Below are positions 3,823-38,100 of a stretch of 64,000 nt of DNA, one piece after another (position 1 is the first letter of the stretch; each line of letters begins with the position of its first letter). The notes under the pieces are model-generated. The model saw only the letters and a program-made list of their open reading frames with translations, was not told the origin of the DNA and did no database searches. The position numbers and the translations under genes were made by a program. Source of the DNA: Periconia sp. R9002 (lineage: Eukaryota > Ascomycota > Dothideomycetes > Pleosporales > Periconiaceae); contig JAMAHW010000091.1 of the NCBI GenBank assembly GCA_023627715.1, forward strand, positions 62,001 through 126,000, in the 5' to 3' direction.

Positions 3823-5730
3823 TCACTTTATCTCTCTCCCACCTCGTTTCTTCAGCCGGATCAAAGGGCCTTCATGATAACTCGTGAAGACGTCCAGCAT
3901 CTGAAACTCCTTCTCCTGTGTGCGCCCCCACTCCCGTCTTTCCGCGACGTAATCCCAGTACACCTCCCTCCAGCCCTTGCCCTGCTTTTTCACTACCTGG
4001 AAATCATACGCCCACAGCATGCGCGCCAATACTAGACCCATTTCCTGGTACGCCATTGCCTTGCCCACGCAGATTGTCCTGCCTACTCCGAACGGCATGA
4101 AGACCTCTTTCGAGTCGGTGTTCTCGTTTTCAGTGAGCCACCGCTCAGGCATGAAAGTGTGCGGCGCTGACCAGTATCGCTCGTCGCGGTGGATGGCGTA
4201 AGCCGGAACGCCGACATCCACGCCTGCGGGGATAGCCCAGCGGTCTGCAATTACAATTCCACCTGGAAGGACTTCTCTAGGGAGTAGCCCGCTGACGGGG
4301 GGTGAAAGCCGTAGTGCTTCGTCGATACAGGCGTAGAGGCATTTGCATTTGGTCACGGTTGATGGCGTCATGTTCTCGATGCCTCCTGGGGCATTTGGGG
4401 GAAATAGTGAGTCCAGCTCACTGCGAACTTTGGCCAACGCATCGGGGTTGTGCAGGAGATAGAAAAGTGTTGCTACTGTGCCGGTAGCAGATGTGTCTGC
4501 CCCCGCTACCATTAAAATGCCTGCCTCGGCGGTTAAGTCTTTGAGGGTGAATGAGTGCGGTTTATTTGAGGGGTTGGGGCTTTTGAGCTCGGGTGCTGGA
4601 TCGTCTTCTAATGTAGTCTCATCAATGAGTGACGAGAAAACATCGCGATGCAGAATCGTTGGCGCGCCTCGAATGCGTTCAATACATTGTTGACGAGAGA
4701 GAGCTATGAATCGGAACACCCCTCGCATCATCCCAGGAAACAGAATTCGATGCAGTTGAAGCTTCAACATAAGAGCAACGTGCCCAGCAGCGTGAATCCC
4801 AGCAGTAGCTTGCGGAAGCAGTTCAGGGATAAACCGGTTTTTGTCGGACGTTTGGACTTCGAGCTTTTTGGAGAAGATGGTATCGCCCATCATGTCGGTA
4901 AAGAGGTATTGTATAGTTTCCGACAGGTTGAAGGTGTTGCTCCAACGCTCCTCTTTAACACCGCCGAGCACGGTCCCCGTAAGAACTCTGGTGTTTTCCA
5001 AGATACTGTTCTCAAAGTCGCCTAGTTTGGAGGGCTCCAGTGCTTGCTTGAGCACACGCCTTTTGAAATTGTGTTCTCCTTTGTCGATGGAGGTCAATGT
5101 GGCAGACGCTTCGAAAGGGATATTAAATCCGCTGTGGATCTCAATTAGTACTTGGGTTTGCTACCGGGGGGACGGGGTGGAAAATACTTGTAGACTTGCG
5201 ATTTTTGAGTGTTTGCGCGGACTCCATATATTGCTTGGACAGCTTCTGCCGTGCAGAACGAGAGCCGGTTTGGAGCATACCGAACTACAGGGCCTGCGAT
5301 ATTCAACTATTAACTAACCAAATTGTATTATTCTCGTAATAGGATCTATACCATAGACATCATGCCATATCTTGAAATGAAGATGGCGTTCGCCGCAAAG
5401 ACATGAGAAAATGTTGTAGAACTCAGCGCAAGCAGCGTACCACGGGCCTGGATATCTTGCTAGAGGGTGAAAGGTGACGCGGTAAACGATAGTGAGAAGC
5501 CACTGCTCGTATCAGAAAATTGTTCCTTGTCTTGATGGAGCAACTGCATGTGATCTTACCAATTCAACGCCCAAGATTGCTAATCTTGCGACATTCGTCT
5601 GCGTTTGACGAAAGAGCCAAAAGAGAAGAATACAACTGAGTAGACATAGCGTCGCCAGTATGGGATGGTGTGTAAAGTTTAGTGTGGTGTTTCGAGAATG
5701 AGTTGATGGCTGCTGTCCAAGAGCCTTCAT
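3823..5730 (-). CDS. Cytochrome P450 monooxygenase
   Basis: Haem-thiolate monooxygenase anchored in the ER. Four exons: 5730-5560, 5502-5352, 5293-5188 and 5131-3823 (introns 57, 58 and 56 bp), giving 578 aa. The N-terminus has a long hydrophobic anchor (ILATLCLLSCILLFWLF) followed by the hinge FHPLARYPGPWY. The I-helix motif is AGADTSATGT, the K-helix ExxR is EALRLSPP, and the haem loop is FMPFGVGRTICVGKAM with the ligand Cys near residue 497, so the enzyme looks intact. The last intron (5132-5187) is set by a TACTAAT branch point and CAG acceptor; an alternative donor nearby leaves the frame broken. It lies 742 bp from, and in the same orientation as, the UbiA-like gene upstream, which suggests the substrate is a terpenoid or prenylated compound. 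That substrate link is inference. Confidence 0.92.
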
Positions 5731-6472: not shown

Positions 6473-7670
6473 TCAATGATAGCCACTTCCAACACACCAT
6501 GCCCAAAAAGGTAGGAGATATAACGAGCTAAGCCACGCATTCCAAACCAGGAAAGTTTTCTTGTCCTCCTTCACACCTCTGAACACCATCGTCCGAACTC
6601 CAACCACCCCAGCCAGGCCTGCCACGAGTCCGCTCATCCAAGCACCCGGACTCCAGAACCACGAACACAGGACAGAACATAGCCCCACCGAACTGCAAAT
6701 GCTGACACGCGCCGGAAAATCACCAATCACTAGTGGTACCGTGCGTCTTCCGCGGGCTCCATCGCCCGGTTGGTCTTCCATGTCTTGTGCGTGTGTTGTG
6801 CAGAAAAGGATGCAGATGAGAACAGCGAACCACTGGTGTAACAGTGCGCAGTCCGTTTGCACTGCTCGGAAAGGTGTCAAGGAGTGTTTCATCTCCATGA
6901 GAGAAGGGCAGGACAGGCCGAAGATTGGTTTTCCTAGAGCGACTTCCATCGCGCCAGTCGAGAAACTGATGTATCCGAGGCTGTTGATGAGGTTTCTCGC
7001 TAAGGCACTCCTGTTGCCGCCGCCCACGTTGTTGTATGCATACCCTGAGACTGTTAGCCCGGTTGGTAATGCGGGTAGGGTAGTTTATAGGCACGCGGCA
7101 AAAACTACCCAGGAGCAATGCAAGAAATGCAACTAGGAATTACGTAACATTCCCCCCGGAAAGCACAAGGAAATGAGGAAAGTAAGATAACGTACCCAAA
7201 CCCATGAGCGCCACACACTGCACCAAGCCCCCAATCCAGTAGCTAACCGCGAAAGCCGCGCAATACACCCTCACCCTCCAGCTGTCCATCTGGCTCTGTG
7301 TGATTCTACCAGCCGGTATCGGTCTCCATGGCTTGTTCAACTTGTCTTCTTCAATCGATGACGTCTGTCGCTGGTTTTCGATTGTGAATAGTAGAAGGTT
7401 GATCCAGACCCATAGTGCCGTCAACGGTAGCCGCCATAGAATCGATGAAGGCTGTGGTATACTTCGTGAATCGAGTCCAAAAACGGGAGCTGCGAGTGCA
7501 TTCGATATGCCGAAAAGGGTTTGTGGGAGTAATATGCTCTTGATATCGCTGTAGGTCATGAGCCAGAGGGTGTATAGGAGAGATGGTAATCGTGTCGACA
7601 TCTTGACTGTGTCTCCCAGAGGGAGACATCTCTTGTAGAGAAAAAGGACATAGAACATAACATTGCTCAT
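6473..7670 (-). CDS. UbiA-family membrane prenyltransferase or terpene cyclase
   Basis: Polytopic membrane enzyme of the UbiA superfamily, 348 aa in two exons (7670-7196, 7044-6473; 151 bp intron with GTACGT donor and CTCAG acceptor). The first Asp-rich loop region ends in DKLNKPWRPIPAG, typical of fungal UbiA proteins. The second loop is HAQDMEDQPGD. Conserved AYNNVGGGNRSALARN follows the splice join, and several hydrophobic helices surround these motifs. I chose the ATG at 7670 because a TATA-like element (TATATATAG, near 7730) lies about 60 bp upstream and would fall inside a longer reading. Fungal members include prenyltransferases and the UbiA-type sesquiterpene cyclase of fumagillin biosynthesis (Fma-TC); a neighbouring P450 fits a terpenoid role. 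Which of the two activities this protein has cannot be read from the sequence. Confidence 0.85.
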
Positions 7671-7727
7671 GCTTGCTGAAATGGGCGTGCGTAAATTCGC
7701 TCCGAAAACCTTAGGAAGGCCCCTGGC

Positions 7728-7738
7728 TATATATAAGA
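7728..7738 (-). promoter_or_regulatory. TATA-like element of the UbiA-like gene
   Basis: The plus strand reads ctatatataag, a TATA box on the minus strand about 60 bp upstream of the chosen ATG at 7670. It argues against starting translation farther upstream, because the longer ORF would translate the TATA box itself. Confidence 0.5.
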
Positions 7739-9441
7739 CCAACACCCACCAACACCCATCTCGTCTCGGCTTCCCAAATCAGCAGACCTAGTTAGACAAT
7801 GCATCGGATCGCGTTCTTGTGTATATGTGCTCGGAATCCTGACGGATGTTCGGAGTTACCCCAGAAGCTCTTTTCACTGAAAAGTACAAAGTTACAAGGA
7901 AACGTCTTACAGTACGCAAAGTACTACCACCATCAATTGATCTTATGTGTACATGTATGCAACAACGCCTGATTTTCTCTCGTGAAGCTTCGATAGTTCT
8001 CTCAACATACGCTCCGGGTCAATTCAACAACTCATTTCCTGTGCTCATGGTGAAGCAAGTTAATAAATGCAACTTCACGGCGTAGTCTTTATCGAATAAT
8101 GCAGCTATCCGGCTCCACTCGTCCTCCTACAGTAAAATTAATTTACAGCGCATGTGCCGAGGTTTGACGATCCGACCAGTTGACGCAAGGAGATCATTTG
8201 CCGCGGGTACAATTTCCTTGCGTGTATGGATGCGCCGTGATGTCACGAGTAAAAGTGGGTGGTGTTCCGTGTGAGTGTAACAAGAGGGAGGCATCGCCCC
8301 GTTCTCTCTCAGGCATTATCCGTTGGCACCCTAGCGAGGCATTTGGATGACTAACCATCCCACCCTCTACTTGTTGCGTATTACACCAGTGAGACTAGTC
8401 AAACATAACCAAGTATGCACTGCTGGCCTCAAAACTTGTTGTTCATATCGTACTCGCTCAGGCCCGACATCCCAAGGATCTAGCCTAGAATCCGCCAAGT
8501 ATGTGACAGGACAAAACTGAACTGATCTCTTGGATAGTGTCTACAGCACATGCGCAACGTTGAGCATCTTGTATTCCGTAGTACACCTTGCCTAGAAAGC
8601 GGTAATTATGGTAGCCCGCTGATTGGATATTTCTTCTAGATGCTTTTAGTCGGGTAGAGACGCCTCTCTAAACACCCCAAACAAAAAAAAAAGCATGTAG
8701 TACTCACCACCTCCAACAACCTGCACCAACAAGAAAAGACAGCTAGTTCTCAAACACCCCAGCAAAAATGTAAGTATACCAAGTCCTAGGTAGTGGGTAC
8801 GTAGCCAACACAATGGCGCGCCCACGTGGAAGCTGCATGGCATTCCTAATGAATCTAGACAGACGGACGAACTAACGGACACGCCGGGGAATACGATATG
8901 CTTTCCCCAACCCAACAAGGCGATCCCTTTATTTTAGTCTAGTTGTACCGTACGAAAACCAACGACACTAAGGTTCCAAACCAAGATGCTGAAGCAGCAC
9001 TTGCCGCTGTCTGCGCGTCAACAATCCTCCATACGAGTGAATTCTAGCCCCCCGGGCTTGCCGCGTCTCTTACGAATACAAAAAAACCCCGAGAAAACTC
9101 CACATTACCCTGACATCGCCTTTGATCTGGATAAGCATATCTGAAGGGTAGTTGCAGTACTTGATTCCGCATACGTGGGGTGCCACTCAACCCTCCAAAC
9201 CACCTCAAGCCTACACAGAAAAACACAAACGACCCTCCCTCCCCCTCTCCCCACCAACCCCAAAAAATCCCCCAACCCATCTTACGCAAGTGGCACCAAC
9301 CCCAACCCCAACCCAACCCGCCAACCTCAGACGAAACACACGCCCACCAGTTCCAAAGTTAAACTAACCCAACTCGAGCTAAGACAACAAACCTCTCTGC
9401 CACCACCACCAACATCCCACATCCCGCATCCTACTCAATCG

Positions 9442-16446: not shown

Positions 16447-17043
16447 GATGGACGACAATGAAGCGATCAAAGGTTAAGGAATGTGTACCTTCGATCTGCT
16501 GTCGCAAAGGAATGAGCCAGATGTGAATGGATGTCGGACGCTTGACGAATTAGTAGAGGAATGCGGGTTGATGCGAGGCCGGGGGATAAGGTAGTAGTCG
16601 TGGGGGTGAGAATGGTAAATACCGCGTTTCCACAGCAACCATGCATAAAGCTGTCACAAATATTGAGGCGTGCGACAAGCGGAAACCTGCGCCATTAAGA
16701 TATATTCAATAGCGCAGCCTAGACAAATTATCAATGAAGCCAGTGATAAAATTGTGCGGTACCCATCTCCGCTTCTGCATCCTGAGCATATATAAACTTT
16801 GTTGAAGTCAATCGGTCCCAGATGTGATGGTGGGAGGACGGTCCCGTATGGTCAGTCACTCAGTAACTTCCAATATGCAGCCATGGTTGGTGTTTCGTTG
16901 CATTACTCTATAAATACGATGGTTCTCACTATGCAGTGTGATGTCTGTGACTGAATAGTGAAGCAGCAGCAGGTGGAGGGTTGTTGATCACGATCAACAG
17001 AGGCGAGACGGAACGGGTGCTTAGTCACCTTGAAGTCTGAGGA
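16447..17043. promoter_or_regulatory. Divergent promoter region of membrane protein and adrenodoxin reductase genes
   Basis: The two flanking genes are divergently transcribed from this interval. TATA-like elements on the plus strand occur near 16790 (catatataaac) and 16910 (tctataaatac), the latter about 130 bp before the reductase ATG. Confidence 0.4.
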
Positions 17044-18801
17044 ATGACGCGAGTATGTACGCAGAAAGATGACTCGCCCTCACTTGACAGCATGCCGACG
17101 TGCAAACGCCTGACACCCACGGTATACAATTATGTGTGTGCGAACTGCGTCCGCGGTACCGCGATTCTGCATGCACCAGCTGTCAAACAGCCATTGACGC
17201 GAACCTATGCCTCCGTACGACCCCTCACCTCCGCATCCAGTCCGCCGACAGCCGTACCAAAACCACGGTCTCTACGAACCACTGTCTCTCAATATGCATA
17301 CAGTACTGCAGCTTCCGAAAGGTCGCTTCGCTTGGCTATCATTGGGAGCGGCCCAGCGGGTTTCTATACTGCACACAGGTTGATGAAGAAAGTCCAGAAT
17401 GCCGTGGTGGACATGTACGAGCAGCTCCCCGTGCCGTACGGCCTCGTTCGATACGGCGTTGCACCTGATCATCCTGAAGTCAAGAATTGCGAAGACACAT
17501 TTGAAATGGTCGCTGCCTCGGAGCGCTTCAATTACATAGGCAATGTCAAAATTGGTCAACACCTGCACCTGAGCGACATGAAACCCCACTACGATGCGAT
17601 CCTATTCTCCTATGGCGCTTCCGAAGATAAAAAACTCGGTATACCGGGCGAGAATCTACCAGGCGTTTACTCGGCCAGGGAGTTCGTGGCATGGTACAAT
17701 GGGTTACCGGAGTTTCGAGATCTCAATCCAGATCTACAGTCTGGTGACCGAGCTGTAATAGTTGGGCAGGGAAATGTTGCGCTGGATGTAGCGCGCATTC
17801 TCCTCTCGCCAGTAGAAGATCTCCGTAAAACTGACATCTCCACACACGCTTTGGAAACACTCTCAGCTAGCAAGATCAAGTCTGTCAACGTCGTTGGTAG
17901 ACGCGGGCCTCTGCAGGCGAGTGACCGTGTATCGGAATTTGGAACCTATTGTATTGACATTCACTAGGCTGCGTTTACCATCAAAGAAGCTCGTGAACTC
18001 ATGCGTATTCCTGATGTCGCCTTTGCGCCAATCGATAAGTCGCTGTTTCCCCCAGATCTCAAGATACTGGAACGGCCACCGCGACGGATAGCTGAACTTC
18101 TGGTAAAAGGAACCCAGCATACTCCAGAGGAAAGCGCCAAGTCATGGGCACTAAACTTTCTTCTGTCGCCTACATCCTTGCATCCACACGAAACAACAAA
18201 CCATGTAGCTGGTATCACATTTACGAAACAAGCTTTTGCTGCAGATGCAGATCCCTATTCAAAGTCGGCACGTGTTGTGCCCACCACAGAGACCGTCACG
18301 ATGCCAACCTCCTTGGCTTTCAGGTCTGTGGGATATAAATCGACTGCTCTTCCCGGACTGTCAGAGTTCGGCATCCCCTTTGATGAAAAACTTGGTATCA
18401 TTCCCAATGACCCTCATGGACGTGTTATAACAGGATCGAGCGGGCCAGGAAATCTAGGAGCGGGCCATGTTCATGGCCTGTATTGCGCCGGATGGGTTAA
18501 GCGAGGGCCGACGGGTGTTATAGCAAGTACCATGGCAGATGCGTTCATGTCTGCCGATGTGATTGTTTCAGATTGGGAGTCGAATGTACCATTTTTGAAC
18601 TCTGGACGCACTGGGAATGAAAGCACTGGACTGGGGTGGGATGGTGTGAAGGACGCCGTTGCACAATCAGGAGCAAGGCCCGTGAGCTGGGAGGATTGGA
18701 AGCGAATTGATGCCGCGGAACGCTCAAGAGGGAAGGAATTGGGTAAAGAGAGGGAGAAATTTATCAGCATAGAAGACATGCTGAAAGTTTTGGATGGTTG
18801 A
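17044..18801 (+). CDS. arh1: NADPH:adrenodoxin (ferredoxin) reductase, mitochondrial
   Basis: FAD enzyme that passes electrons from NADPH to mitochondrial ferredoxin for Fe-S cluster and haem A synthesis. Two exons, 17044-17916 and 17968-18801; 568 aa. The 51 bp intron has a GC donor (CAG|GCGAGT) and CTAG acceptor; without it the frame stops at once. The N-terminus is basic and Ser/Thr-rich, as expected of a mitochondrial presequence; a second ATG at 17092 could be the true start. The FAD site is IIGSGPAGFYTAHRL, followed by the family block PYGLVRYGVAPDHPEVKN. The NADPH site is VIVGQGNVALDVARILL, with VVGRRGPLQ, RSVGYKS and the C-terminal FAD-contacting AGWVKRGPTGVIAS. The sequence is complete, single copy and housekeeping in character. 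The 3' end lies 130 bp from the convergent UstYa gene. Confidence 0.96.
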
Positions 18802-18931: not shown

Positions 18932-20220
18932 CTAATCGCCACCCCTTTTCCCCCCATGATGATGCCCACCCTCCTCCTTCAAGCTCGGATCAAACGTCAC
19001 AGCATCCCCAACATCCTGCCACATGACCGCCCGCTCCGTCTCCCAATTCCACTTCACAATCGCATCGAAGTCGCGACACGTATGTCGGCTAGAGAAATCG
19101 GGAAGGGAAAGTCTTCGCGCAGGGATCGAGCTGTCATCGTAGAAGGTTACTGGGGTGACGTCTGCTGTGCAAGTAAGAGAGAGGCGAAGTGCATCTACAC
19201 AGTGTTCTGAGAAAGGGACAATTAGTTCTGCTTCGGTAACATATAACAGAAAGGGGGAAAAGGTATACCATGGTGAATTTGTATCGTCTCCAACGCCGTT
19301 CCATTGGGATAGGAATGCTTGTAATAATCCCAATTGAAGAACAAAGCTTTGCGAAGTTCGTCCTACACCTCACATCTCCATTAGCTAGCTACCCTTCCTC
19401 ACCTCCGCCACTCTCCCAAAAACGAGATAAGAAAACTCACCAAACAGTGCAACAAATGCATAACCTCCAACATCGCCACATACCCACCCTTCCCATCCTG
19501 CACCTCATGCATCTTCCTCGTCCCGTCGACCAGCTTCTTCCCCAACAACCCTTCAATCTCCTCGCCTGAGAGTCTTATCCCTGGCACGCCGACGCCGACA
19601 TCTTGCCAGGCTTGGTCGACGGAAGGGGGTGGTCGTTCGCCTGGGTGGCCGCGGAATTTGTTTGTTTGGTGGATTTCGGCGGGGAAGAAGGAGGGGGGTT
19701 TGTAGGTTATTGCGGGGAGTGCGGGGGCTGTGGGTGGGGGAGGGTTAGTGAGGATTTTTGCGTGTGATATGAGGGAACGAGGGCGTTGAGGTCGACGGGG
19801 AGTTTGTGGATGCGCATCTCGTAGGTGTCACAGGTCTTGCAACCCTCACCGCTAGAGGCCTTGCCGATGGTGATTTTGAAGTTCTCGGTGGGAAAACAGA
19901 CGGGCGGATTGAGGAAACTTACACCATGTGGAGAATTTACGGGTGTAGGATTCAATCGAGATGGATGGATGTCGCCATATGTAGAGTATGATGAGGATGT
20001 AAATAGAGGATGTCAGAATATGTGAAAGGATTAAGAAACGAGAACTATGCTTAGTTCCAGTGATACGTTGCCATATTCGCGATACGAACGATTCTTTCTT
20101 TTGTTTGTATTTAGATTTTTCGGAGGGTGTAGTCGTAAGGAGCTCATGACTTTCTTCGTCGTCTACGCCACGGATTGATTCCTCAGACTTTGATAGATCA
20201 GAATAGCTAAATATTGACAT
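18932..20220 (-). CDS. UstYa-like (DUF3328) oxidase
   Basis: Membrane-anchored protein of the DUF3328/UstYa family, whose members carry out oxidative cyclisation of ribosomally made fungal peptides (ustiloxin, asperipin, phomopsin types). Four exons: 20220-19923, 19727-19441, 19362-19269 and 19206-18932; 317 aa. A Ser/Lys-rich cytosolic head is followed by one helix (FLILSHILTSSIYILIILYI), then PPSVDQAWQDV, which matches the family's PPSxExDxAW-like region. Both family metal-binding motifs are present: HLLHC (first HxxHC) and HEHC in HHEHCVDALRLSLTCTADV (second HxxHC). The first intron, 195 bp, is longer than its neighbours and its boundaries are less certain. The gene is divergent from the repeat-precursor gene 1.37 kb away, which makes a dikaritin-like pair plausible. 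Confidence 0.9.
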
Positions 20221-21587
20221 TGGGGGACAAGGAAAGAGTAATCGCAATTAAGGGTCGTAGATGTTGTCGTAGGAGAGCGAACCGAAATAGTGTGACCGAG
20301 ATGACAGCAGCAAACATCTGGAGTCTACAATGCCCAGAAAACAATCCCTTTACTATCTTTGGAGAATGCCATGTCTCCTCTTTCCTTATCCACCTTACAC
20401 TCCCTTATCTTGACCGCGGCAGCTGAGATTCTCCGTCTAAGCCAAGAATCTCACGGAATAGGCATCATAATCGCATCAATGCATCCATGTAATTGCCAAT
20501 CAAGCATTCGCTGCAGAACCTTTTGGCCAAGTGCCAAGGACGAGGTCCGCCGCTTACGGTGTCGCGAGACGATTCCCAAACTAGGAAGGTGTTTGTCTAG
20601 CACTCTGACATCGCCAGTTTCTTCAATACTATTTGGGGCAATAAAACGAGGATTTGCGGGGGCGGCACTAAGAAAGTAAACACCAACTACATTTTCCTGC
20701 AGCACGACATGCACGCCTGAATATTACAACATTACATGTACTCCTGAAAATGGTCTAGGTTTACATTCATCGTATAACATTGAATTCTATAGGACGGAAC
20801 GTGACGTTACACAGTGTCGACAACGGTAACTCTTTCGAGTAAATAAACGACAAGCATGCCGAGACGTGGCTGGAAGATCTTGTCCAGTGATTTATCATTT
20901 TCAGCCCCAAAGCTAACCCGTCAATTCGTAAACGCTACCAGATTCCGGTTCAACGTGCGTAGCCCTAATACTCACTCCCCATACATCCAAAACAAAAAAT
21001 CCTACACCGTCAGCTGAGCACCAAGCTGAACGAAGCTTTCATCCCAAAAGCTCCAGCTTGAATGCTTATATCAAAGACTGCTTTACACCAATCGTTTGCG
21101 AAGACAGAAACACTTTCGATACCAAAGACTGTCTGATTGCCCTGTTCTCTTATACTCTAGACGTTCATACTATAACCGAGAAATCCTTCCATATTCATAA
21201 GTACGGAAAGGCAATCAACCATACGGCCTTTTCAAAAGCGGAATAAATGAGAACACACTCACAACCCAGACCCACATATACCAAACCAAACTGTGAAACA
21301 AACGATACGAAGACCATACAAAAAGGCTAGATCCAACAACTCTAAGCTGACCACTTGCATGGGAGGCCCTGCTGCCTGTGTTGAGTTAGGAAGGTAGAAG
21401 GTAAGAAAGCGTTGCAAGAAGAATAGGGAATAAAAGATACGCTTGCGTGATCATGAAATCGTAGACCGAGGTTCTGTTGTATACATATATATATACCGAG
21501 ACTGATTCTCCTATTCCGTTGACTCCATCCTGCCACATCAATCAGCATCCGACTCCATTCATCTGAAACAACTCTTTAATCTCCAAA
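20221..21587. promoter_or_regulatory. Shared intergenic promoter of UstYa gene and repeat-precursor gene
   Basis: Head-to-head intergenic region of 1.37 kb, so the two genes could be co-regulated. A TATA-like stretch (tatacatatatatatacc, 21480-21498) lies about 95 bp before the precursor ATG. Short overlapping ORFs at 20359-20714 have no clear coding character. No transcription-factor gene is seen here. Confidence 0.45.
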
Positions 21588-21985
21588 ATGAAGTTCACCG
21601 TTGCTGCCTTCGCCCTCGTGGCTGCCGTCGCAGTTGCTGCGCCTGTTGTGAGTTAACACACTCTTTGTTTTTACATACAAATGTTTTCTTCTTTAAACCA
21701 TGATATACCATGACACAAAAATTGACTTCGATCAAACAGGAGACTCTCAACTCTCGGGTTGGTCTAGATGACGGACATTACGGCAAATCAGAATTGAACA
21801 CTCGTGTTGGACTTGACGACGGGCATTATGGAAAGTCGGAACTGAACACTCGCGTTGGACTTGATGACGGACACTACGGAAAATCAGAATTGAACACCCG
21901 TGTTGGACTTGACGATGGCCATTACGGAAAATCAGATCTTAATACTCGCGTGGGACTCGATGATGGGCATTACGGCAAGAATTAG
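21588..21985 (+). CDS. Secreted repeat peptide precursor (candidate RiPP precursor)
   Basis: Small protein of 101 aa from two exons (21588-21647, 21740-21985) split by a 92 bp phase-0 intron with GTGAGT donor and CAG acceptor. Exon 1 encodes almost exactly a signal peptide (MKFTVAAFALVAAVAVAAPV) behind a good start context (CCAAAATGA). Exon 2 is five head-to-tail 16-residue units of the form LNTRVGLDDGHYGKSE; the only changes are Ser for Thr in unit 1, Asp for Glu at the end of unit 4 and the final Asn. Signal peptide plus tandem repeats is the architecture of dikaritin and Kex2-processed repeat precursors, and each unit has one Tyr that a UstYa-type enzyme could modify. Unlike those precursors, there are no dibasic KR/RR sites; only a single Arg and a single Lys occur per unit. 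A plain secreted repeat protein is the alternative. Confidence 0.85.
21746..21985 (+). repeat. Five tandem 48-bp coding repeats
   Basis: Units begin at 21746, 21794, 21842, 21890 and 21938. The protein repeat is nearly invariant while the DNA differs mostly at third codon positions (for example Leu codons ctc, ttg, ctg, ttg, ctt at the first position), so the array is old and its peptide sequence is under constraint. Confidence 0.95.
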
Positions 21986-23774: not shown

Positions 23775-25192
23775 TCACTCGATCACCATAACCCCCACCT
23801 TCTCCGCCAACTCATCCCCTTCTGCCCCTCCTTCCCCTTCCTTCCAAAACTCCGCCCCCACAGACGGTACCATCTCAAATCCAAACAAATTCCTCTCCTC
23901 CTCGCCCATCGACTCATGAATAAACCCTTTCCCCTCAATATCCAAAACATCAATTAGAACCGGCCCCTTGTACGTCTCCCTTCCCATCGACTTATCCTTC
24001 GTGAAAATATTCACATAAAACGGAACACCCTTCACGTCGCCAATATGTTCGACCGACAGCCGCGATACGGGGCAATCGCCATGTACGTAAGCGTTCTCAC
24101 CACTTTCCTCGTCGTAATACGCAAATGTCATTTGGTCGCGTCCGATGGAGACGTGTAAGCGCATATCGCCGTCGTTCATTGGTTTACCGTGGTAGAACCA
24201 GCGCGTAGGTCCGTTTCTAATTTTCCGAGCTGCGGTAGCTGTTACCCCGTTTCGAACGAGAATGGTATCTGGGCGCCTACCCACTACGTCGGTAGACGAA
24301 TTGCTCAATACGACCGAGAAGACGATGTCAGCGTGCAGGTTCGAGAGATCGACTGCGAAAGAGTGGACTTCGTCGGACCCGGTTTGGAGGTAGATTGGTT
24401 CGGAGGTGATGATTTCTGGTTTTCCGGCTTCAATTGTTGACTGGGAGAAGATGGGCGTTGCGGGGACGGGGGTGGCTTCTACGAGTGGGATACGCGGAAC
24501 GGCAGGGAGACGGTCCTTGTATTCCAAGAAGGTTTGTCTCGCGCCTTGTTTGACTTGCTCGAGATCTCCCATGGTAACACTTGCCTTGACTAGGCTGCCA
24601 TTTTCTTGTGGGACGTAGTCTGGATAGCGCAGCAGGAGAAAGTCAGCGAAAAGGCTTGGTTGGAGTGTATGAAGCGAGAAATTTTCACGTACATGACACG
24701 ATGGCAGACATCAGGGACGCGAATAGGGATGAGAGAGTGTACTCGGACTTCCAAGTACCCCCTGTTGCCGCCGGGCGCAGGATATCGAAACACAAGCTAC
24801 TTTGCGTTGTGGTTTTCCCTATCACCCATCGACTCGCATCGACGTTATATCGCTTGGTAGGTGTATAAAGATGGACTACTGGTGGCTTCGTGGGATACTC
24901 CTAAAATATGATACCAAGTCAGTGGGCGATTAACATCTTTAAAAACTCGTTTCCCTCGCGTAACACTGACACAAACACATCTATGCTGAAAGTAGTGACT
25001 TACATCCCCAATATAAAGAGATCCCACAAGATTTTGGTGAGATAAAGCTCCATCGTTGGGCTGCATGATGAAGTAAAAATGAGTAACATCGTTGTCGGCG
25101 TTGCCACGACTGATTTGGGTCCTCAAACTGAAGAAACTGCGGTTCACATCCTCGATCTCCGCCCACACTCGCTTGAGAACGCTATGCTTCAT
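23775..25192 (-). CDS. E2/UBC-fold protein with C-terminal extension
   Basis: Three exons (25192-25004, 24900-24693, 24619-23775; introns 103 and 73 bp) encode 413 aa. The first 150 residues follow the ubiquitin-conjugating enzyme layout: an N-terminal helix with LKRVWAEIEDVNR, then GSLYIGDEYPTKPPVVHLYT (the E2 YPxxPP turn), then SLCFDILRP with a Cys where E2 enzymes carry the catalytic Cys, a Trp (GGTWKSEYTLSSLFASLMSA) and the crossover helix. The usual HPN triad before the Cys is not apparent. The remaining 260 residues match no family I recognise. The upstream exons are recovered only by splicing and join in frame. It could be a true E2, or an inactive UEV-like protein if the missing HPN is essential. 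Confidence 0.72.
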
Positions 25193-26676: not shown

Positions 26677-27528
26677 TAGCGCCATCTGTTAAGGCTGGGG
26701 GCCGAGATATAATGGCTTTCGAAAAAACATGTTTAGGTCGGACCATGGAGCAATTTAGACGAGGATCACCGATGAAGTCGCCTTCAGATGTTCACGAGTA
26801 GGTACCTACGCAAGTGATGTCACCTGTCACCTATCTATTGGTCGTTCACTATGGGTCTAAGCTTTATGCACGCCTTGTGCAGTACTTATGTAATTTGCTG
26901 CAGCTACGAAGTATCCGTAGAAACTGTAGGATTTATAATGGGATGTCTTTCTCTCCCCCGCAAAGATTCGGACGCACTCACCACTCACGCTAGGCTTCAC
27001 ATCAGACCCACAGTGTCACTCTCTTACTGTCAGCTCAAGTCCTGGAACAATCAGTACCGTCAAATCCAGGTCGCTCTGCACAGCACCGTACAGCTTTGCT
27101 TTAACGCTTCGCATTCCCGTGTAGATACCTTCCGTAAGCAGTAATCTATGAGTGCCAAACCAGCCACATGTGTATGAATGCTCTAGGAACTCTAGTCCCT
27201 CCAAACCAACGTTAACCTTATGGCGAATTGGCTAAAGCTAAGATGGCGCCACTAGCGTTAAGCTCCCGCCGTGCCCGCTAGCTCCCGCTAGTTCCCGCCC
27301 CCACTAAGTACTGCCGGACGCTCAAGGCAGCTACCGCAACATAAACAAACACGGCTCAACTACGCTATACGCAGCCTGGTTCCTGTGTCCAAGTGCGTGC
27401 AAAACAACCTCGTCTTTACCACTAACGAGCTCTTCGAGGCCGCTTCTCTCGCTCTGCAACACGACTTCACCTCGAGGTCCATTCTCCACGCATCTCGTAA
27501 TTCTGAGTGCGTTCGATCCAAAGCAATT
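26677..27528. other. Gene-free interval with short GC-rich repeat
   Basis: Relic sequence beyond the ankyrin gene and the promoter region of the dehydrogenase. A short GC-rich stretch at 27262-27303 repeats gctcccgctag/ttcccgccc units. An ORF crossing into the dehydrogenase from 27385 has no ATG and is not used. Confidence 0.35.
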
Positions 27529-28431
27529 ATGGCAAACCAGCTAAAGTACAACTCCAAGCTCTGCGATGCACACATCCTCGTCATCGGAGGCTCCTCTGGC
27601 CTCGGCTTTTGCGTCGCAGAAGCGTGTCTTGAACTCGGCGCTAACGTTGCCATCGCCTCTTCCAATGCGACCCGGGTAGACCGCGCCGTTGCGCGACTGC
27701 AAACCAGCTACCCCTCGGCCAAAGATAAGGTGCATGGCCTACTTGTAGACTTGTCTGATACCGAGACATTAGAAGAAGAGCTGAAGGGCGTGCTAGAAGG
27801 GGCAGTTCAGAAATTCGGTACAAGTAAGCTCGACCACGTCGTGTTTACCGCAGGGGATCCGTTGGCTATGATGCCCTTGAAGGACATGGTATGCTCACAT
27901 TTACTTTATCTGTACCTGCACAAGTCCGTCGCCCTCAAGAAAGGTTCGCCCTCTAGAAAAGTTTCCGGCTAACTGGTAGGGGCGTAATGATAGAACACCA
28001 AAAATGTCATCCGCGCAGGCACAGTTCGCTTCTTTGCCCCGCTTCTCCTGGCCAAATACCTCCCCTCGTACCTCAACTCCTCTTACAAATCGTCTTATAT
28101 CATCACCACGGGAGCCGTATCAGAGAAGCCAGTTCCCAACTGGAGCGTCATTGGTAGCTATGCAGGCGGGACCCATGCTATGGTGCGCAACCTCGCGCTA
28201 GATCTCAAACCCATCCGGGTTAATGGCGTAAGTCTCGGCGTTGTAGACACAGAACTGTGGGGCGACGATCAAGACAGGAAAGACAAGACCTTGAGCTTTC
28301 TGGCGCAGAAGATGGCGACGGGAAGACCAGGGCGACCTGAGGATGTGGCAGAGAGTTATTTGGCTTTGATGAAGGATTGGAACATTGATGGAACTATGAT
28401 CAGCACTAACGGCGGGAGTTTGATCATGTAG
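27529..28431 (+). CDS. Short-chain dehydrogenase/reductase-like protein
   Basis: Rossmann-fold NAD(P)-dependent oxidoreductase family protein, 265 aa, in two exons (27529-27888, 27994-28431; 105 bp intron, GTATGC donor and ATAG acceptor). The cofactor loop is VIGGSSGLGFCVAEA (TGxxxGxG class), LLVDLSD is the adenine-binding acidic loop, VVFTAGD replaces the usual NNAG, and IRVNGVSLGVVDTEL follows the active site. The catalytic YxxxK is degenerate: the aligned stretch is SYAGGTHAMVRNLALDL, where the Lys position holds Thr. Related fungal SDRs share this change, so it may be a specialised subgroup and not decay. Substrate unknown. No neighbouring biosynthetic gene suggests a pathway. Confidence 0.88.
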
Positions 28432-29161: not shown

Positions 29162-32100
29162 TCACGAAGTCCCCAGAATCCTACCATACGCGTCCTCCAC
29201 TTCCCTCGCGATCTCCAACAACGTAACAATAACAATCTGGTGCGTGACATTAGGCAAGCGATCCCTATGTAGACCGATCCACTCAAGAGGGGGCGTGGCC
29301 TCGCCCATGTCGCGGAGCTGCGGGGTTTCGATGAGAGGCGGTTCAAGGGCCTTGTATGAGTATCGGCTTTGGGGGACGTTGACTACGGCGGTGATTTTGC
29401 CTTCGGGTTGTTGTTGAGTACTTTGAGGCTGGATTGATGTTGAGAGTGTTGCCGTGGCGTCTTGTGAAGCTGGGGTTTTGTTGTCGCCGCTGGAAGGCGC
29501 AGCAGCAGTGGCCGGCTCATTGGAGCTGATTTTGATGTTGGATTCCGGGAGTGGTTTCCCTAATCGTGAGGCCAGGGTGCGCGAGTGATTTGACCACATG
29601 GTGCGGATAAAGGAGATGCGGTTGTAGTTCCAGCCAACATCGACTTTGCCCTCGAGCGAGCTTTTGAATACATATTCTATCTCGCTGCTGCGAGGCTCCT
29701 GCCACGTGTGCATAGTGGCAATGACCTTGGGTACGCGCAAAATGGTTCCTCCGCGCGCGTTTTTGATGTTTTCCATGACGTCTTCTACAGTGAGGTCTGT
29801 CACGGGATTGGTAGTTGTTTTCTTGGGTGATGGAAGAGAGGAGAGCGCAAAGGAGAGTTGGCCTAGCGTGAGGCCGAGACCCGAATGGATTTTACCACCT
29901 TCGAGGGCAACGGCGAAACGCGCCTGGGCGTCGGCGGCTGTTAGGAGTAGGATTTGCGTGTCGACGAAGGTGGAGGGGAAGACGCCAAAGTTGATGGAGC
30001 GCAGTGTGACAACGACGTCTGTATGGAGTGATATTGGAGCTTTCACATCGTCCTCGTCGGGCTTTGAAGAAGACATGCTCTGTGACATTTTACGACCAAA
30101 TGGCTGGCCAACTGAGGATTTGCGACGCAAGAACTTCTCAATGTCTTTGAGGGATTGTTTGTAAGCTTGCTGATTTTCCTGAATCAGGCGCTCAATGGCT
30201 TGCCACAGGGCAAGGCCCTGCGCTGCGCTTGTCGTGTGACAGCAGACATGAACCTTGTCTCCGTCGAGGATTGCGACAAGGCGATTGCGGGCGCCCTCAT
30301 TTGGTTCGCGCACATTATACATTAGGAAATTGAAATTGGCAATGTCGGCAATTATGAATGCCTGGTAGTCAAATCCTGCCTTGACGCGTAGCTGATTGAA
30401 TCCGATGGATGCTTGAATCATAGGAGTCTGCTTGCTAAGAACTTCTTGGGAAGGCCAGCTAATCGATGTTCGCACCTTCACACCAGCAAGCTCCACAAAC
30501 CCGCTCGTGCGGCCTGTGCTTTCGAGACTAATTGTGTCAACACCGATGCAAAGATTCTGCTCCCAATCGGTGCTCTTCCTGGAAGAGGCCCACATGTTGT
30601 GGATATTGAGTGATGTCTTGCCAATAGCTTGCCCAAGGTCAAGCTCCACCGATAGCTTGGCGATAGCCACGTTCGCATTCCATGGAAAGGCGGTAGCTGC
30701 TGTGACCTGCTGGTATCGCTGAATGAGATACTCCTGCGGCTCTTGGGCCATATTGGGTGCAGGAGTCTTGGGTGATTGGCGTATTTCAGGCGGAACCCAA
30801 ATTTCTCTGAAGAGTAAGAAATCTTGAAGCTGTCGAGCATTGATCTGTAAGGCCATGGGATTGATCTTGAGTATTGCTGAGATACCGCTGGTTCCACTTA
30901 GATGCTTGCTGTTCATCAACGACAGAACGACAGAATCGACATTGAACCCAAACGTGGATTCCCTCGAATAGACGTGTTGAACAGTGGCTTCCAGATTCTC
31001 GAATGCAGCCGAGGCAGCGAAGAAATGGCCGTGTTCCTGGGATTTGACGCTGTTGACTGTAATATAAATATCTTCAAGCTTTGCGATGGCTGCAACGCGT
31101 GCGATGGGCTGGCAGCTTAAACTGAACTCTTGTCTACAGATGCGCAAGCCCAGATTCAACCGGGTCCTTCCGAGAAGCGTACTAGGATCTGCAGTGATTA
31201 GGTTGTTCTCATCATCTTGCGGCTTTGGCGCTGACTTCGGTTCAATCTGCAATTGGGATGGTTTCGCAGGTGTAGAGGCAGAGTTGGGTGATTCCTCGTC
31301 TTTCTCGCGAACAACTTCCTTGATGCTCTCGGAAATTTCGATGATGACAGGCACGACAGTGGGATACAGAGTATTACTCGACCCATCGACCCTCATCTCA
31401 GCGTTCAGAGACGGCTCGTGTCCTTCCTCGTCTCTATACTCTACTTTGATTGCTACACCTGGAGCTCGTAGATCCAAACTGCTCTTTGACGAATCTCCAA
31501 CAAATTGACTATATCGTCCCTTTTGCTGCGAGCGGCTTTCTTTGGCGTTCGAGTCCAGCTTTGAGTCACTTCCATTAATGTGGACCACCGCACCAGCAAA
31601 GTTTGCATCCACCAAAAGTGCACCCAGTTGTTTGTTGCCGAATGGATTCTTCCGTTGAGCTCCGCTTTTGGTAGGCGTAGTGCTCCAGTTTGCGGAAGCA
31701 TTGCGAAACTTTTTGCCTGCTAATGCAATTGACCGCTCGATAACGTTGGCAGGCTTGATGAATTGAGAATCGAGCTGCAAATGGAGCGATTTGCCTGCAG
31801 CATGAAATGCAATATTTCGGGTATCCTTGGTAGAACTGTATGTCACATTGAACACAACTTCGGGGAGGAGGGCTGAGTTCAAAGACCGTGCACGTTTATC
31901 CGCGGATACTGGTACCATCTGCAAGTTCATATCCTCAATCATCAAACGAGCTGTGTCATCTTTGCGTGTCGACAGATCAACTCTTCTAAAGGATAACACC
32001 AGATCTTCAGATTCAGTGTTTGAGAAGGGAGCAATTGATGTTCCTACAATCCAACTGATTTGAATATTTAGCAATTCCAGAGAATACGTAGACGTGAATA

Positions 32101-35100
32101 GTGCACCAGAGTCCACGCTTTGTTGGTCAACATCTGTATCGCTCTTTATGCTTTGAGCTCGCTTATTAGCAATCTGACTCTTCTTGTTTCGAAGTCTCTT
32201 CAGATATTTCTTTTCCTTTGATAGGTCCAAGTCCTTGATCTTGTCCTGCAGATGATTCATCACATCTACCACGGCAGATGCTGTGTCTGCAAAAATGTTC
32301 ACTTCAAGGCCAGAGCTCTTAGCTCGGTACACTCTGCGAGTAGACCCTTCGTTCACTTGTGCAGTAGCTTGGAACATGGCGCTGAATGTAAGATTTCCGC
32401 AACGCCGAATTGAGTCGTGATCCGATAATGTGATGTCGACAGAGATTTCGTGTAGCAATACAATTGCCTCTGGGAATGCTAGAATCTTGTTGTCGTGGCC
32501 GATGTTAGATGCTTTGAGCTGAACGGAAGTTAGTCGAACAGCTAGATTTGCGGTAGGAGAGTCTCTATGCTGTCCTGGAGCGTTGGCAAGAATGTTCAAA
32601 CCAGAAAGCGTCAGCTGTACACCGAAAACGATTTCCCTCGAAGACAGTGGCGTTTTGGCAACTGGCTCACTGCTTTTAGCAGGGAATATCTCTTCGATGT
32701 GTGTCCTCAATATCTCCACGTCATCTTTGATAGCATGAACCACGTTAGAAATCTCGGGTTTGTTAATGGTCGCTATCAGGGCTTGGATTTCCGAAGCCTG
32801 CAAGTTGATCGTTTCAATGGTTCCTGCAGCAGACACTTTAATCTCCTTCTCGGTGTTCGTGACCGACACTCTGCCATTGACAGGCGGAAATTCGAGCGAG
32901 CTAACGATATTCGAACTTTCCAAGGTGTTGCTGAGCATTCTGTGCGTATGAGCTGCAAGATCATAATCCACGCGCAGTGTGACATTCTGGCCAAGAGTAG
33001 GTATCACAGAGATACGGCCCGTTGTACCAGCGATCGACCAGGTCAGGGAGTGCAAGAATGCCACTTCAATCTGATACTCATCCATCAGTAAGGCGAGCGT
33101 GATATTCGGTAACTGTGTTGCCTTTTCATCCTTTTTCGGCGTGTCAGACTTAGACTTAGACCCAGTCTGCATGGCCATTGCTTGCCCATGGAGATACGCA
33201 ACCTCATCTCGTACCACCAAATCGGCAACTTCAATCAAGCCAAGCACACTCTCCTCAACACGCAATTTAATCATTTGACTAGCACCAGCCACTTGGATTT
33301 CATCGGGAATGATACTCTCCGTCCCATGCTCACGGTGTGAAAAGTAAAGACTTGGTTGGCTGAAGTGAGAGTGCAGCAGTGGCCGAGACCGTGAAGACAA
33401 TCTCGCCAAAGCCTGCTCTGCATGGATATGCACCGTTGATGTCTGTCCTTGTTTGGAGGCTTTACGATCTAAAGTAACGACGGATGTCCGGAAGCGTTTG
33501 CCCACAAGCACACTCTGCAAATTGATGGTATCGAGCGAAAGTTCAGCCTCTTCCGTCACAAATACAATTTGCAAACTACGATCGAAGATGCTCTCTACTT
33601 TTTTGTTTACAGAGCGTGGCGGGCTGTCGATCGTGTGCTTGAGACTTTCCTCCTGAAACATGCCCATCAGGGTTTTGACGAGCTCACAAATTTCCCAGCG
33701 GATATGAATGAATGTGTGCATAGCATTGATCTGAACGACTGTGGTCTGCTGAAGAGATTCAGATGCCGTTACCATGAGACCTGTAGGCTCCGGGGGTGGT
33801 TCCAAGACGACATTGATTGCCAGAAGTTGTAGTCCGACTTCGCTTTGGCTGGGGCCGGGATCAAGGATCAATTTGATACCTGCAGAACGGATATTGACGT
33901 GAAGTGGAGAGCTCTTAACTACCTCCGCTTGACTGACAAGACGTCCAAACAGCATCTTCATTGCCAGACTTTTCTTTACATGTGCTAGATCCCAGGCACG
34001 CCACTGGTCCCACATACTAATGATCTGCTCTTCTGCGTCCTTGGGACATGGCTGAACTGTATCCTGAGCGCAGTGATCCAAGACTTTCTGTTTTTGAGAG
34101 TCTGTCAAGCTCCGCCAAGTGTATCGAAACCGCGAGAGGATTTTCCAAGAGTCGTGGCTACGTAAATGGTCTCTGACCGCACGAAGAGTGTACGACGCCT
34201 TCGTCAGGAAAGCCGGGTCCTGGACCCGATCTTGCAGACTGGTGAGATACCATGCCAGATACTGCAATCGCGTTTCTTGTCTCTCGATAACATGGGTAAA
34301 ATCTGTACCCAATTCTTCTCCTAGCAGGGTAGTCCGATGAATGAGTGAAGCCAGGTATTGAATCTTCCGACTCGCAGTGGCCGTTTCAAAAGCTTTGAAA
34401 TTGACGTTGATGGCGGTTTCTTTGGACTTTCTCATCCACACTAACAAATCTCTTATCTCAGCCTGAACTGCTACATCTTCATCAGACTCATGTGCGCTAC
34501 GTTCCGTAACAGAAATGCCAAGCGAGCCTAAAGTTGTGTGCATAGAGATCGAATTCTCCCCGGCTTGTTCACCGGGAAAGTTCTTGATGCGAGCCGCCGT
34601 CTTGAGCTCGTTGAGAATTATGTCATATTGGTCTTTGCTCATATCGAATTTGTTTTGGAATCGAATGTGGGTGAACGGAACGTGAACATCGAACTCGATC
34701 GTGTCCCCTTTTCCTTCGCGGCGTTTTTGATTGTCAAGAATCTTTTTCATGACACTGACTTGGAAACCATCCAAAACATCCTCGGGTTGACGTGGTTGCA
34801 ACTCATCCAATAGTTTTGACGCGCATCGGACGAAGACTGGGGTACAGTAAAGCCTCAGGCCGGGCTCGGCAGCAACAAGAAAACTCATATGCTCAAAGTT
34901 TTCGTCGAAGTTCTTCGAAGCTATATCGTTGAAAACGAGTGCATCCTCACCAGCATCACGTGCTGATCGAGAAGGCAAACGAGGAAATTCGGGAACATCT
35001 GACATGTCAGGCTCAACAAGATCCAGGGGGAAATATGGGGCAGTAAGAGAGCTGGATAAAGCAACTGAAGACGGCGGAAGATTTCTTCGCGCCCTCTCTT

Positions 35101-38100
35101 CTTCTGCGTAAACCAAGTGGTGTCGCTCTCGGTTGCCCATATTTGTTGATGCATTGCTCGGTAATGTTTTGCTTCTGCTAGAGCTTGTCTTGCTTTGATG
35201 ATTGACTACTGATCGGATGCTGCTACGAATAGAGCCGCTGGATGACGAACGTGAGGAGGCAACATGCTTCTTTCGTTCACGGTTTGAAATTGAGTTGGAA
35301 GAATATCCAGCAATAGTCGATGAACTTGAGCCAGAGCTGGGCTGGAATAAGAAAATTGGATGGGGAATCTCAGGGTATTGTAATGCAGGAGGACGAGAAG
35401 CCGCTTCATTCTGCATGTTCCGAGAGGACGACAAGAAGTTGTCCATGAACATGAATTGAGTCCGATTCGTTCGTCGATCCTGCTCCTGCATATGCTCTTG
35501 CTGTAGTTTCCGCTCTTCAGTGAAGTTGAGTTTCCGCGTCAGCATGTCGAACGTCAATGTAGTTTGTAGGAAAGCATGGGTCTGTATCAGACGTTGTTCA
35601 CCCTCTCGTGTTCTGTGACGTGAAGCAGATAGCGCGTCGACAGCCCCTACAGTCAGATCTGGTATCCAGACATTCAAGCGTTGTGAAAAGGTGCTTCCAG
35701 CGAGATCATTGAAGTCGAGTTTGATATGCCTAGTGCTAACCAATACTACTTCTTGCGCAACATGGAACCACACGTGAACATCCGCAGTCCGGAGTCGAAG
35801 GAAGGTAGAGTCATGTATGATCAAAGGATGTGCGATAGGAAGGGTATTCTCGTCATCATCCAGCGTGAACGCAAAGGAACGAGCTGCGCCGATACCCTTG
35901 GCGACAAAATCGGTCGTGCATTCGCCAGATATTTTCCCGACATCAAAATCCCAGCTGCAGACGTACGTGGGCTCTGTGGGAGGGAGACCAAACAAACGGT
36001 GGCCGTAGATAACAACCGAGTCAATGAACAGTTCGGTTTGCCCTCCAGAATCATCCACCACGCCTGTTTTAGTAACAGAGGTGCCAATCGACAGGCTGAT
36101 AGGGCTGAAATTTACCATGAGATCCATGTAGTAGTTGGTGAATCGTAGGTCGGCAGATACAAAAGGCAGCTCTGCTCGGAGACTGTTCTCGGCCGTATAC
36201 AAGTTTGACGGAAATATCGCGCTGGTTTCTTCGACGGAAATTGTCAAGATCACATCCAGGTCATTTGTTACTTTCACAGGCTGGTCATTGGATGCCACTC
36301 CATCTGCTGCAAGGTTTTGAGCTGGGAGACCCTGAAATTCCTCCAGCGTTTTGAAATGCATGTCCTCGCCAAAATAGTTATCCTTCATCTTCATGAAGTG
36401 ATGGACCAGCCAGCCAAACAACTCAACATATAATCTCTCACCCCTGCAGTCCATGAACAATCTATCCGTATTCATGGCAGATGTTTCAGTCATATACGTG
36501 TGACTGCCTGATAGTGACAAAACACCAAGTTTTGCAACATTTTTTGATTTGATGAACGTACTGATGGTATTCTGCGAAGAAGTCAATATATCAAGGCCTA
36601 TGTCCTGCCCTTTCACGTCGAACTTGATCTCGTTTTGAAGGGGTTTGAACTTGTCCAGAGGTATCACAACGTCTCCATGTAAATGATGGCCGTGCAACAC
36701 AACGAAGTTGTTTTCGTCGAATTCCGTCGGATTGTTGATAATGTTGGAATCATTCGTGTTGAGATAGATCTTGAAGTTTGGGAAATCGACATTCAACAAA
36801 TATTGAAAGGGCACGAAAGTAAAGTAATCTGGAGGTGGGCCGGAGCCCCAGTCGGTAATAAGATCTGTCAATAGAAACAGATGATCCCGCAATAGAAACA
36901 GTTCCAGATCCTTACACGAAATGCCAAACCCCCATTTACGCAAAGTGTTCCAGCTGATTGGATTGGAAAGATCGCAATCAAGGCCAATTGCACCTGAACG
37001 CCAAAGTAAACCATGGTTGACGCTTGAAGAGATCTCTGTGCTAGCGATGTCAACACCTAATTTGTTCTGGAATCCCTGCTCCGAAGCAACCATATCCATT
37101 AAGTAGTTGACGGAAGAGTTCCCAGCAACCTTGATGTCAATCCAACCAAAAGGTCGTACATTCTGATGGGAAGCAGTAGTATCACGCGACTTTCCCCGGA
37201 TTGATTTTCGTCTTGATCTTGATTTTCCCTTCGCTTTCCCGGCTGCCTCCTTGTTTTTGGTTACCGCGCGTGCTTTCCCTTTCCATTTCCAGTCCTTTGA
37301 TGGCTCGCGAGTTGGAATACGGAGTACAGTTTCTTTTTCAATGCCGAGGTAGACCCTGAAAGTGGAAAGTATTCTTGCATCACCTGGCTTCAACGGTGGA
37401 GACGGTACGGCATCAACACGAGCTCCAGGGAAGAACATATTCTGAAAAACAACTCGATGTCGATCAGCCCATGGTCCATAATTGATAATGCCGCCATTTA
37501 TTTGTATTTCCATGCCGTACGCCGGCGGGGCGCTGCCATTGATGTCCCCAGGGCGCGTTGGGTCATCGTATATACTGTTGTCAATTTCGCTTGGTACAGG
37601 TCCAGTGACATCCCAATAGAATACTACATTGACAGAGGGGCAATCCACTATAAGTGACGTGCTCGCATATTCCAGTGCATCCCATTCGCCGTGGGCATCC
37701 CTTTCGTTCTCATCGAGATAACGTGCAAGCCCTTTCCACTGGTCTTGACCGGGCAGCTGCCATTGAGGAACAAACATGTTGCTTTTTTTCGCACCATCAG
37801 CATTGGAGTGGGTATGTATTGAATCTGAGGATTTGGAGAAGAGGTTTGGCAGATGTGGTAGTCGTAATTTCCATATTCGAGCCTTTTCCGCCGCGACTTC
37901 TTTTTTCTCGCTTTCATAACCTTCCAGTTGATGTTCCAAGGTTTGTTTCAAGCGTATAGCGGAATCCAATTGAGGTAACTGGTAGTCTGGATTGGGTTTC
38001 ATGTGCACTACTGGATGTGTAAACTGGAATCTGAAAACCTGTTGGTAGACATCAAGAGGTCCACATGAAGAGGCGTCTAGTTCACCGCTTGCTTTGTCGA

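Follow-up and report, generated by a model that had tools for sequence, protein, structure and literature searches.

A UstYa/DUF3328 gene head to head with a five-repeat secreted precursor gene without dibasic sites in Periconia sp. R9002: a candidate minimal oxidised-repeat-peptide locus

The 64,000-nucleotide stretch of Periconia sp. R9002 analysed here (the window; contig JAMAHW010000091.1, positions 62,001 to 126,000) carries a UstYa/DUF3328 gene lying head to head with a small gene for a secreted precursor made of five nearly identical 16-residue units. The genome holds at least three ordinary pairs of UstYa genes and Kex2-processed repeat proteins (KEPs), and the window pair shares their layout without one defining feature, the dibasic cleavage site. 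We give about even chances to the reading that the pair is a minimal locus for an oxidised repeat peptide, akin to those of ribosomally synthesised and post-translationally modified peptides (RiPPs), working like a dikaritin pathway with release at single basic residues.

The oxidase gene and the repeat-precursor gene

The two genes, whose start codons are 1,367 bp apart, comprise the following features.

18932..20220, minus strand: UstYa/DUF3328 gene, 317 amino acids (four-exon model, Pfam match, alignment with 29 relatives)
20220-19923, 19727-19441, 19362-19269, 19206-18932, minus strand: UstYa exons, borders set by eye
19444..19458, minus strand: first HxxHC motif, HLLHC, residues 190-194 (derived by hand from the exon borders)
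19199..19275, minus strand: second HxxHC motif, HHEHC, residues 225-229, interrupted by intron 3 at 19207-19268 (derived by hand)
20221..21587: divergent intergenic region, 1,367 bp (sequence inspection)
21588..21647, plus strand: precursor exon 1, signal-peptide-like MKFTVAAFALVAAVAVAAPV (by eye)
21648..21739, plus strand: precursor intron, 92 nt, GTGAGT...CAG
21740..21985, plus strand: precursor exon 2, the five 16-residue repeats in tandem, then the stop codon
21746..21793, plus strand: repeat 1, LNSRVGLDDGHYGKSE
21794..21841, plus strand: repeat 2, LNTRVGLDDGHYGKSE
21842..21889, plus strand: repeat 3, LNTRVGLDDGHYGKSE
21890..21937, plus strand: repeat 4, LNTRVGLDDGHYGKSD
21938..21985, plus strand: repeat 5, LNTRVGLDDGHYGKN, and stop

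A sequence-only reading of this stretch had recognised a UstYa gene with both HxxHC motifs, and this holds: a Pfam scan matches the product to PF11807 (UstYa) with 153.5 bits (cut-off 25), the four-exon model is free of stops across 317 residues, and both halves of the family pattern HxxHC(x)nHxxHC are present. When the product is aligned with its 29 relatives, H225, H228 and C229 are invariant in all 30 sequences, and H190, H193 and C194 are kept in at least 90% of them; one annotated relative in this alignment, P0001, is without the stretch that bears the first motif. Intron 3 has four versions that keep the frame open and show no other difference, and the TCTCAG acceptor was chosen because that version restores the HxxHC motif. 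The product begins with a charged stretch, followed by one hydrophobic helix (by eye) and then the oxidase domain, and it has an SPA stretch in common with most of the aligned relatives. The copy appears intact, with no sign of breakage. A protein of the same family, CctR (DUF3328), is reported to be membrane-bound, binuclear in copper and dioxygen-dependent, with the copper on the HxxHC motifs, and its authors extend this description to the family (PMC12435403).

Two further observations concern this gene. Its product ends in a His-rich tail (GGHHHGGKRGGD, 18932-19000, minus strand) that resembles the GHHHG or HHH with which many Colletotrichum relatives end. Also, intron 1 is long (195 nt, 19728-19922) and lies inside a 101-residue open stretch of another frame (20012-19707, minus strand), which is probably due to chance. 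The sole match to a solved structure, an epoxide hydrolase at an E-value of 0.043, was taken as noise, and an AlphaFold monomer model of the relative P0003, with a mean confidence score (pLDDT) of 52.7, was too poor for use.

The precursor is 101 amino acids long and begins with MKFTVAAFALVAAVAVAAPV-ET, after which come five 16-residue units with the consensus LN[ST]RVGLDDGHYGK[S/N][E/D]; MKFTVAAFALVAAVAVAAP was judged by eye to be an N-terminal signal peptide. The copies are spaced 48 nt apart, and the array was picked up independently by repeat finders. Across codons 1 to 14 of the five units, 14 of the 16 variable nucleotide sites are third positions and a single residue is off the consensus, against a mean of 18.6 amino-acid differences (minimum 8) when an equal number of changes is placed at random in 20,000 trials. 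Pairwise comparison of the units over all 16 codons likewise gives 82 synonymous versus 15 non-synonymous codon differences. This bias towards third positions shows that the repeats are translated and constrained, and together with the two-exon model it bears out the divergent gene for a secreted five-repeat precursor that had been proposed, at the right coordinates, from the sequence alone. The non-synonymous changes are S/T at position 3, E/D at position 16, and S-to-N and the stop in the last unit, and the S/T, E/D and S/N changes all fall outside an 11-mer, RVGLDDGHYGK, that is identical in the five units and begins and ends with a basic residue, the unit having no others.

Each of the five repeats contains one Tyr, as had been noted, and one His. 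The suggestion that the core is undescribed is consistent with a literature text search, with supplements outside its scope, in which GLDDGHYG was not found; occurrences of the shorter DGHYG in that search were unrelated, judged by title and abstract. Pfam matches of the precursor to Phage_OMP (22.3 bits, cut-off 27) and DUF5061 (17.5 bits, cut-off 23.6) were set aside as chance. A TATA-like run was found by inspection at about 21480-21495, some 100 bp 5' of the precursor ATG, and a bacterial promoter and terminator scan of the intergenic region was disregarded as inapplicable to a fungus.

Other UstYa loci in the genome and relatives of the pair

The genome (42.9 Mb, 267 contigs) has UstYa domain matches at 61 places, grouped by eye into 34 loci, one of which is that of the window. 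We read 26 of the 33 others, as 20 regions of about 10 kb and six of 4-6 kb, and scanned six-frame open stretches for tandem repeats (4,945 stretches, the window's included), where three rounds with shuffled residues gave no score above 5; L001-L010 were excluded from the scan, being short loci that repeat the same places or belong to the window. Kex2-type repeat genes occur near UstYa in three of the 26 regions. The first, L018, has nine 19-residue units of the form TN[I/S]YPGV[K/R]YPGD...KR in an apparently intronless gene among several UstYa matches (3490-4164, minus strand, G000:C100). At L014, a repeat exon of 12-residue units with VAYPESYKR adjoins two UstYa matches (2893-3102, minus strand, G000:C75), and at L011 a repeat exon whose units contain WYDITYIDK lies between two such matches (4847-5206, minus strand, G000:C60).

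By hand arithmetic, no more than about 1.4 kb separates each of these repeat genes from a UstYa domain match. At L014 and L011 a signal-peptide-like stretch was seen by eye upstream of the repeats in a different frame, a shift that presumably reflects an intervening intron, as in the window precursor. In the stretches counted, L018 has eight dibasic sites, L014 four and L011 14, versus none in the window precursor. Eight rows of the repeat scan from L026 and L029 (scores 9 to 16) were dropped as low-complexity, by eye, in overlapping frames, and one from L018 (score 12) because it falls on the strand opposite the precursor there. The scan found no other repeat open reading frame (ORF) at a score of at least 9 within the 64-kb window.

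At a density of about 34 UstYa loci per 42.9 Mb, the chance of a UstYa locus within 2 kb of a given gene is about 0.3%, a figure computed after the pair had been noticed. In a published survey, a DUF3328 gene is reported among the 15 closest genes for 22% of KEP genes, with a peak at the very next position, and Tyr in 65.6% of the repeated sequences of DUF3328-linked KEPs versus 38.2% of the others (PMC7329392). Published dikaritin loci have this layout as well, with UstYa encoded close to a secreted repeat protein that bears Tyr (PMC7329392, PMC9632046, PMC10512285). The sequence-only reading of a dikaritin-type locus therefore stands for the layout, which recurs three times in the 26 other regions, and falls short at the dibasic Kex2 sites, whose absence it had not remarked on.

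Relatives of the UstYa protein are readily found, with 29 proteins at an E-value of at most 0.001 among 1,606 candidates. The closest are from Paraphaeosphaeria sporulosa (58% identity over 92%), Paraconiothyrium brasiliense (64% over 67%) and Lophiostoma macrostomum (66% over 64%), all three of which we take to be Pleosporales; others come from Diplogelasinospora, Microdochium, many Colletotrichum and a few further fungi. The precursor, searched against its own genome, has matches at an E-value of up to 10 only in its own two exons.

Release and oxidation of the repeats

In the pathway that we infer for the joint action of the two genes, their oxidation chemistry and the cleavage sites, the precursor would enter the secretory pathway, where the membrane-bound UstYa protein, a putative lumen-facing binuclear copper oxidase, would oxidise or cross-link each GLDDGHYG-bearing unit, most likely at Tyr and His. 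A Golgi protease (Kex2 acting after a single Arg, or a monobasic protease) would then cut after LNTR and/or GK, and a carboxypeptidase would trim the basic end; at most five copies would result, either of roughly VGLDDGHYG or of the full 16-mer. The computed [M+H]+ of VGLDDGHYG is 932.411 (930.395 minus 2 H, 928.380 minus 4 H), that of VGLDDGHYGK is 1060.506 and that of the 16-mer VGLDDGHYGKSELNTR is 1760.856 (1758.841 minus 2 H). We favour this pathway because the UstYa gene is intact with both motifs, the layout matches that of the Kex2-type pairs of the genome and proximity by chance is rare; because the core between the two basic residues is unchanged in all five units; and because Tyr is enriched in DUF3328-linked KEPs and cuts after a single Arg are on record. 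The latter come from mushroom KEPs expressed in Pichia, for which several peptides are described as cut after a single Arg, with products ending in Lys (PMC9769878).

Several findings weigh against this pathway, beginning with those that concern cleavage. Dibasic sites (KR, KK, RK, RR) number zero in the 101 residues of the precursor. A published Kex2 scoring matrix gives weight at P2 to Lys and Arg only, with Thr at zero, so LNTR is disfavoured as a Kex2 site; according to the same source, Kex2 enzymes that are not from Saccharomycetales should be more demanding about charge at P4 and P1' (PMC2515848), and the LNTR/VG junction has a charged residue at neither. That source also states evidence for further residues at P2, and reports acidic and small residues (A, V, L) as over-represented at P1' and P2' of Kex2-cut sites (PMC2515848); the P1' residue after LNTR is V.

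The missing sites bear directly on a different outcome, which we consider improbable, in which UstYa oxidises the repeat protein and it is never cut, leaving a secreted 84-residue protein with one oxidised or cross-linked Tyr/His per repeat. The near constancy of the entire repeat, beyond the presumed core, fits such a protein, as does the contrast between no dibasic site here and 4 to 14 in the three UstYa-linked precursors of the genome; the dikaritins of the cited papers, however, are small released peptides (PMC9233826, PMC10512285), and the single-Arg cleavage reported for expressed KEPs also counts against an uncut product. The multi-copy secreted layout would also suit a linear peptide or pheromone-like signal that is cut from the repeats with UstYa uninvolved, and if the signal peptide is cut off after A17, the mature start, AP, is an XP dipeptide, a type that Ste13 takes off (PMC7329392, PMC9769878). 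We regard this as very unlikely, given that the precursor has no dibasic site for such processing either and that KEPs annotated as pheromones are reported to be almost all without DUF3328 neighbours (PMC7329392).

Also to be set against the proposed pathway are the evidence on linkage and the neighbouring genes. Of the 26 other UstYa regions that were read, 23 showed no recognisable repeat gene of this kind, and the window UstYa protein shares at most 42% identity, over short stretches, with the paralogues at other loci, so that no shared ancestry with the Kex2-type pairs can be claimed. The sequence-only reading had looked to conserved linkage of precursor and UstYa gene, and this was not borne out: no precursor homologue was found at an E-value of up to 0.1 among 5,679 candidates or, with a lengthened query, at up to 10 among 7,994 scored. 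This failure is weak evidence of absence, because the search depends on shared 5-residue words and on predicted proteins, and annotation elsewhere may well have missed so small a repeat gene with two exons; in the survey cited above, 2,560 of 7,878 KEPs are without a homologue (PMC7329392). With 29 relatives for the oxidase and none found for the precursor, these searches give no sign of co-inheritance or conserved linkage. Among 18 other window ORFs scanned with Pfam, a subset of those present, there is no tyrosinase, methyltransferase or peptidase, and the only match with a transporter name, Solute_trans_a (39859-41076), lies at a distance of about 18 kb.

These findings lend some substance to the view that the two genes are chance neighbours. 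The precursor would then be a secreted repeat protein of an ordinary kind (an effector or a wall or surface protein), and UstYa would act on a substrate produced elsewhere or serve a different product. Such a coincidence is conceivable, since the genome has about 34 UstYa loci, most of those read being without a recognised repeat gene, and UstYa relatives occur in Colletotrichum and Pleosporales while no precursor relative was found. In addition, a UstYa enzyme alone is no proof of a RiPP, since a protein of this family tailors the non-ribosomal peptide cyclochlorotine (PMC12435403). We nevertheless hold chance neighbourhood to be unlikely in view of the 0.3% figure and of the layout that the pair shares with the three Kex2-type pairs.

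The other flanking ORFs look unrelated to the pair. Two lie at 17041-18801, the first matching Pyr_redox_2, and on the far side are an unclassified ORF (23775-24710), SDR ORFs (27292-28431) and a very long ORF (29162-38938). Towards the start of the window, a cytochrome P450 ORF (3823-5160, minus strand) is close to two UbiA-like ORFs (6473-7084 and 7140-7778, minus strand), the second of which is below the Pfam cut-off; these are possibly a separate small metabolite cluster. They were rejected as members of the present locus, being more than 10 kb away with Whi5-like and pyridine-nucleotide-oxidoreductase-like ORFs in between.

Fungal surveys have sought repeats separated by Kex2 sites (PMC7329392, PMC9632046). 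In particular, the KEP definition asks for three or more repeats, each 8 residues or longer, between KR, KK, RK or RR, and 7,878 of 69,264 signal-peptide tandem-repeat proteins were kept as such (PMC7329392); because of the dibasic requirement, a precursor like the present one would be dropped. Our analysis tentatively suggests, with somewhat less assurance than for the locus itself, a class of UstYa-modified peptides from multi-core precursors that have no dibasic Kex2 sites, with either monobasic release or an uncut oxidised repeat protein. If such a class exists, surveys with this requirement (PMC7329392) would have missed every member. If the pair works as proposed, the search rule is too narrow, and other UstYa genes that appear to lack a substrate may have a substrate gene adjoining them. 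One oxidase and one 101-residue substrate would also make a small system for the copper chemistry of UstYa on a Tyr/His core, and for the question of how a precursor is cleaved without dibasic sites.

Comparison with known systems

The window precursor resembles KEPs in its five repeats of 16 residues, where at least three of at least 8 are asked for, after a signal-peptide-like start, and differs in having no dibasic sites. It resembles the dikaritins (ustiloxin, phomopsin, asperipin-2a, epichloecyclin and victorin) in its signal peptide, its tandem cores and the UstYa gene nearby, but differs in the absence of separating KR, RR or KK and in that no further tailoring gene was recognised among the ORFs scanned. 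The core of the window precursor also appears to differ from those of the dikaritins other than phomopsin. The usual description of dikaritin precursors has cores set apart by KR, RR or KK (PMC9769878), and the precursor falls outside both this description and the KEP definition. We therefore file the locus as neither, since the defining feature was looked for and is absent. The phomopsin core, given as YVIPID (PMC7099791), is unlike that of the window. The five-gene definition of dikaritins by Ding, as quoted in PMC12048977, includes further cluster genes (tyrosinase, methyltransferase, transporter or peptidase); the asperipin-2a pathway, which also has a single UstYa gene (PMC7329392), is described without a peptidase gene (PMC12048977).

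Within the same genome, the pairs at L018, L014 and L011 have repeats that are unrelated to those of the window. CctR of the cyclochlorotine pathway has the same pair of HxxHC motifs, with two copper ions reported to be bound there, but its substrate is a non-ribosomal peptide, unlike the RiPP precursor proposed here (PMC12435403). The BURP-domain burpitide cyclases are plant proteins with a domain of their own, and they resemble the pathway proposed here in that they are reported to carry out copper-dependent side-chain cross-linking of ribosomal peptides (PMC12186524, PMC12435403).

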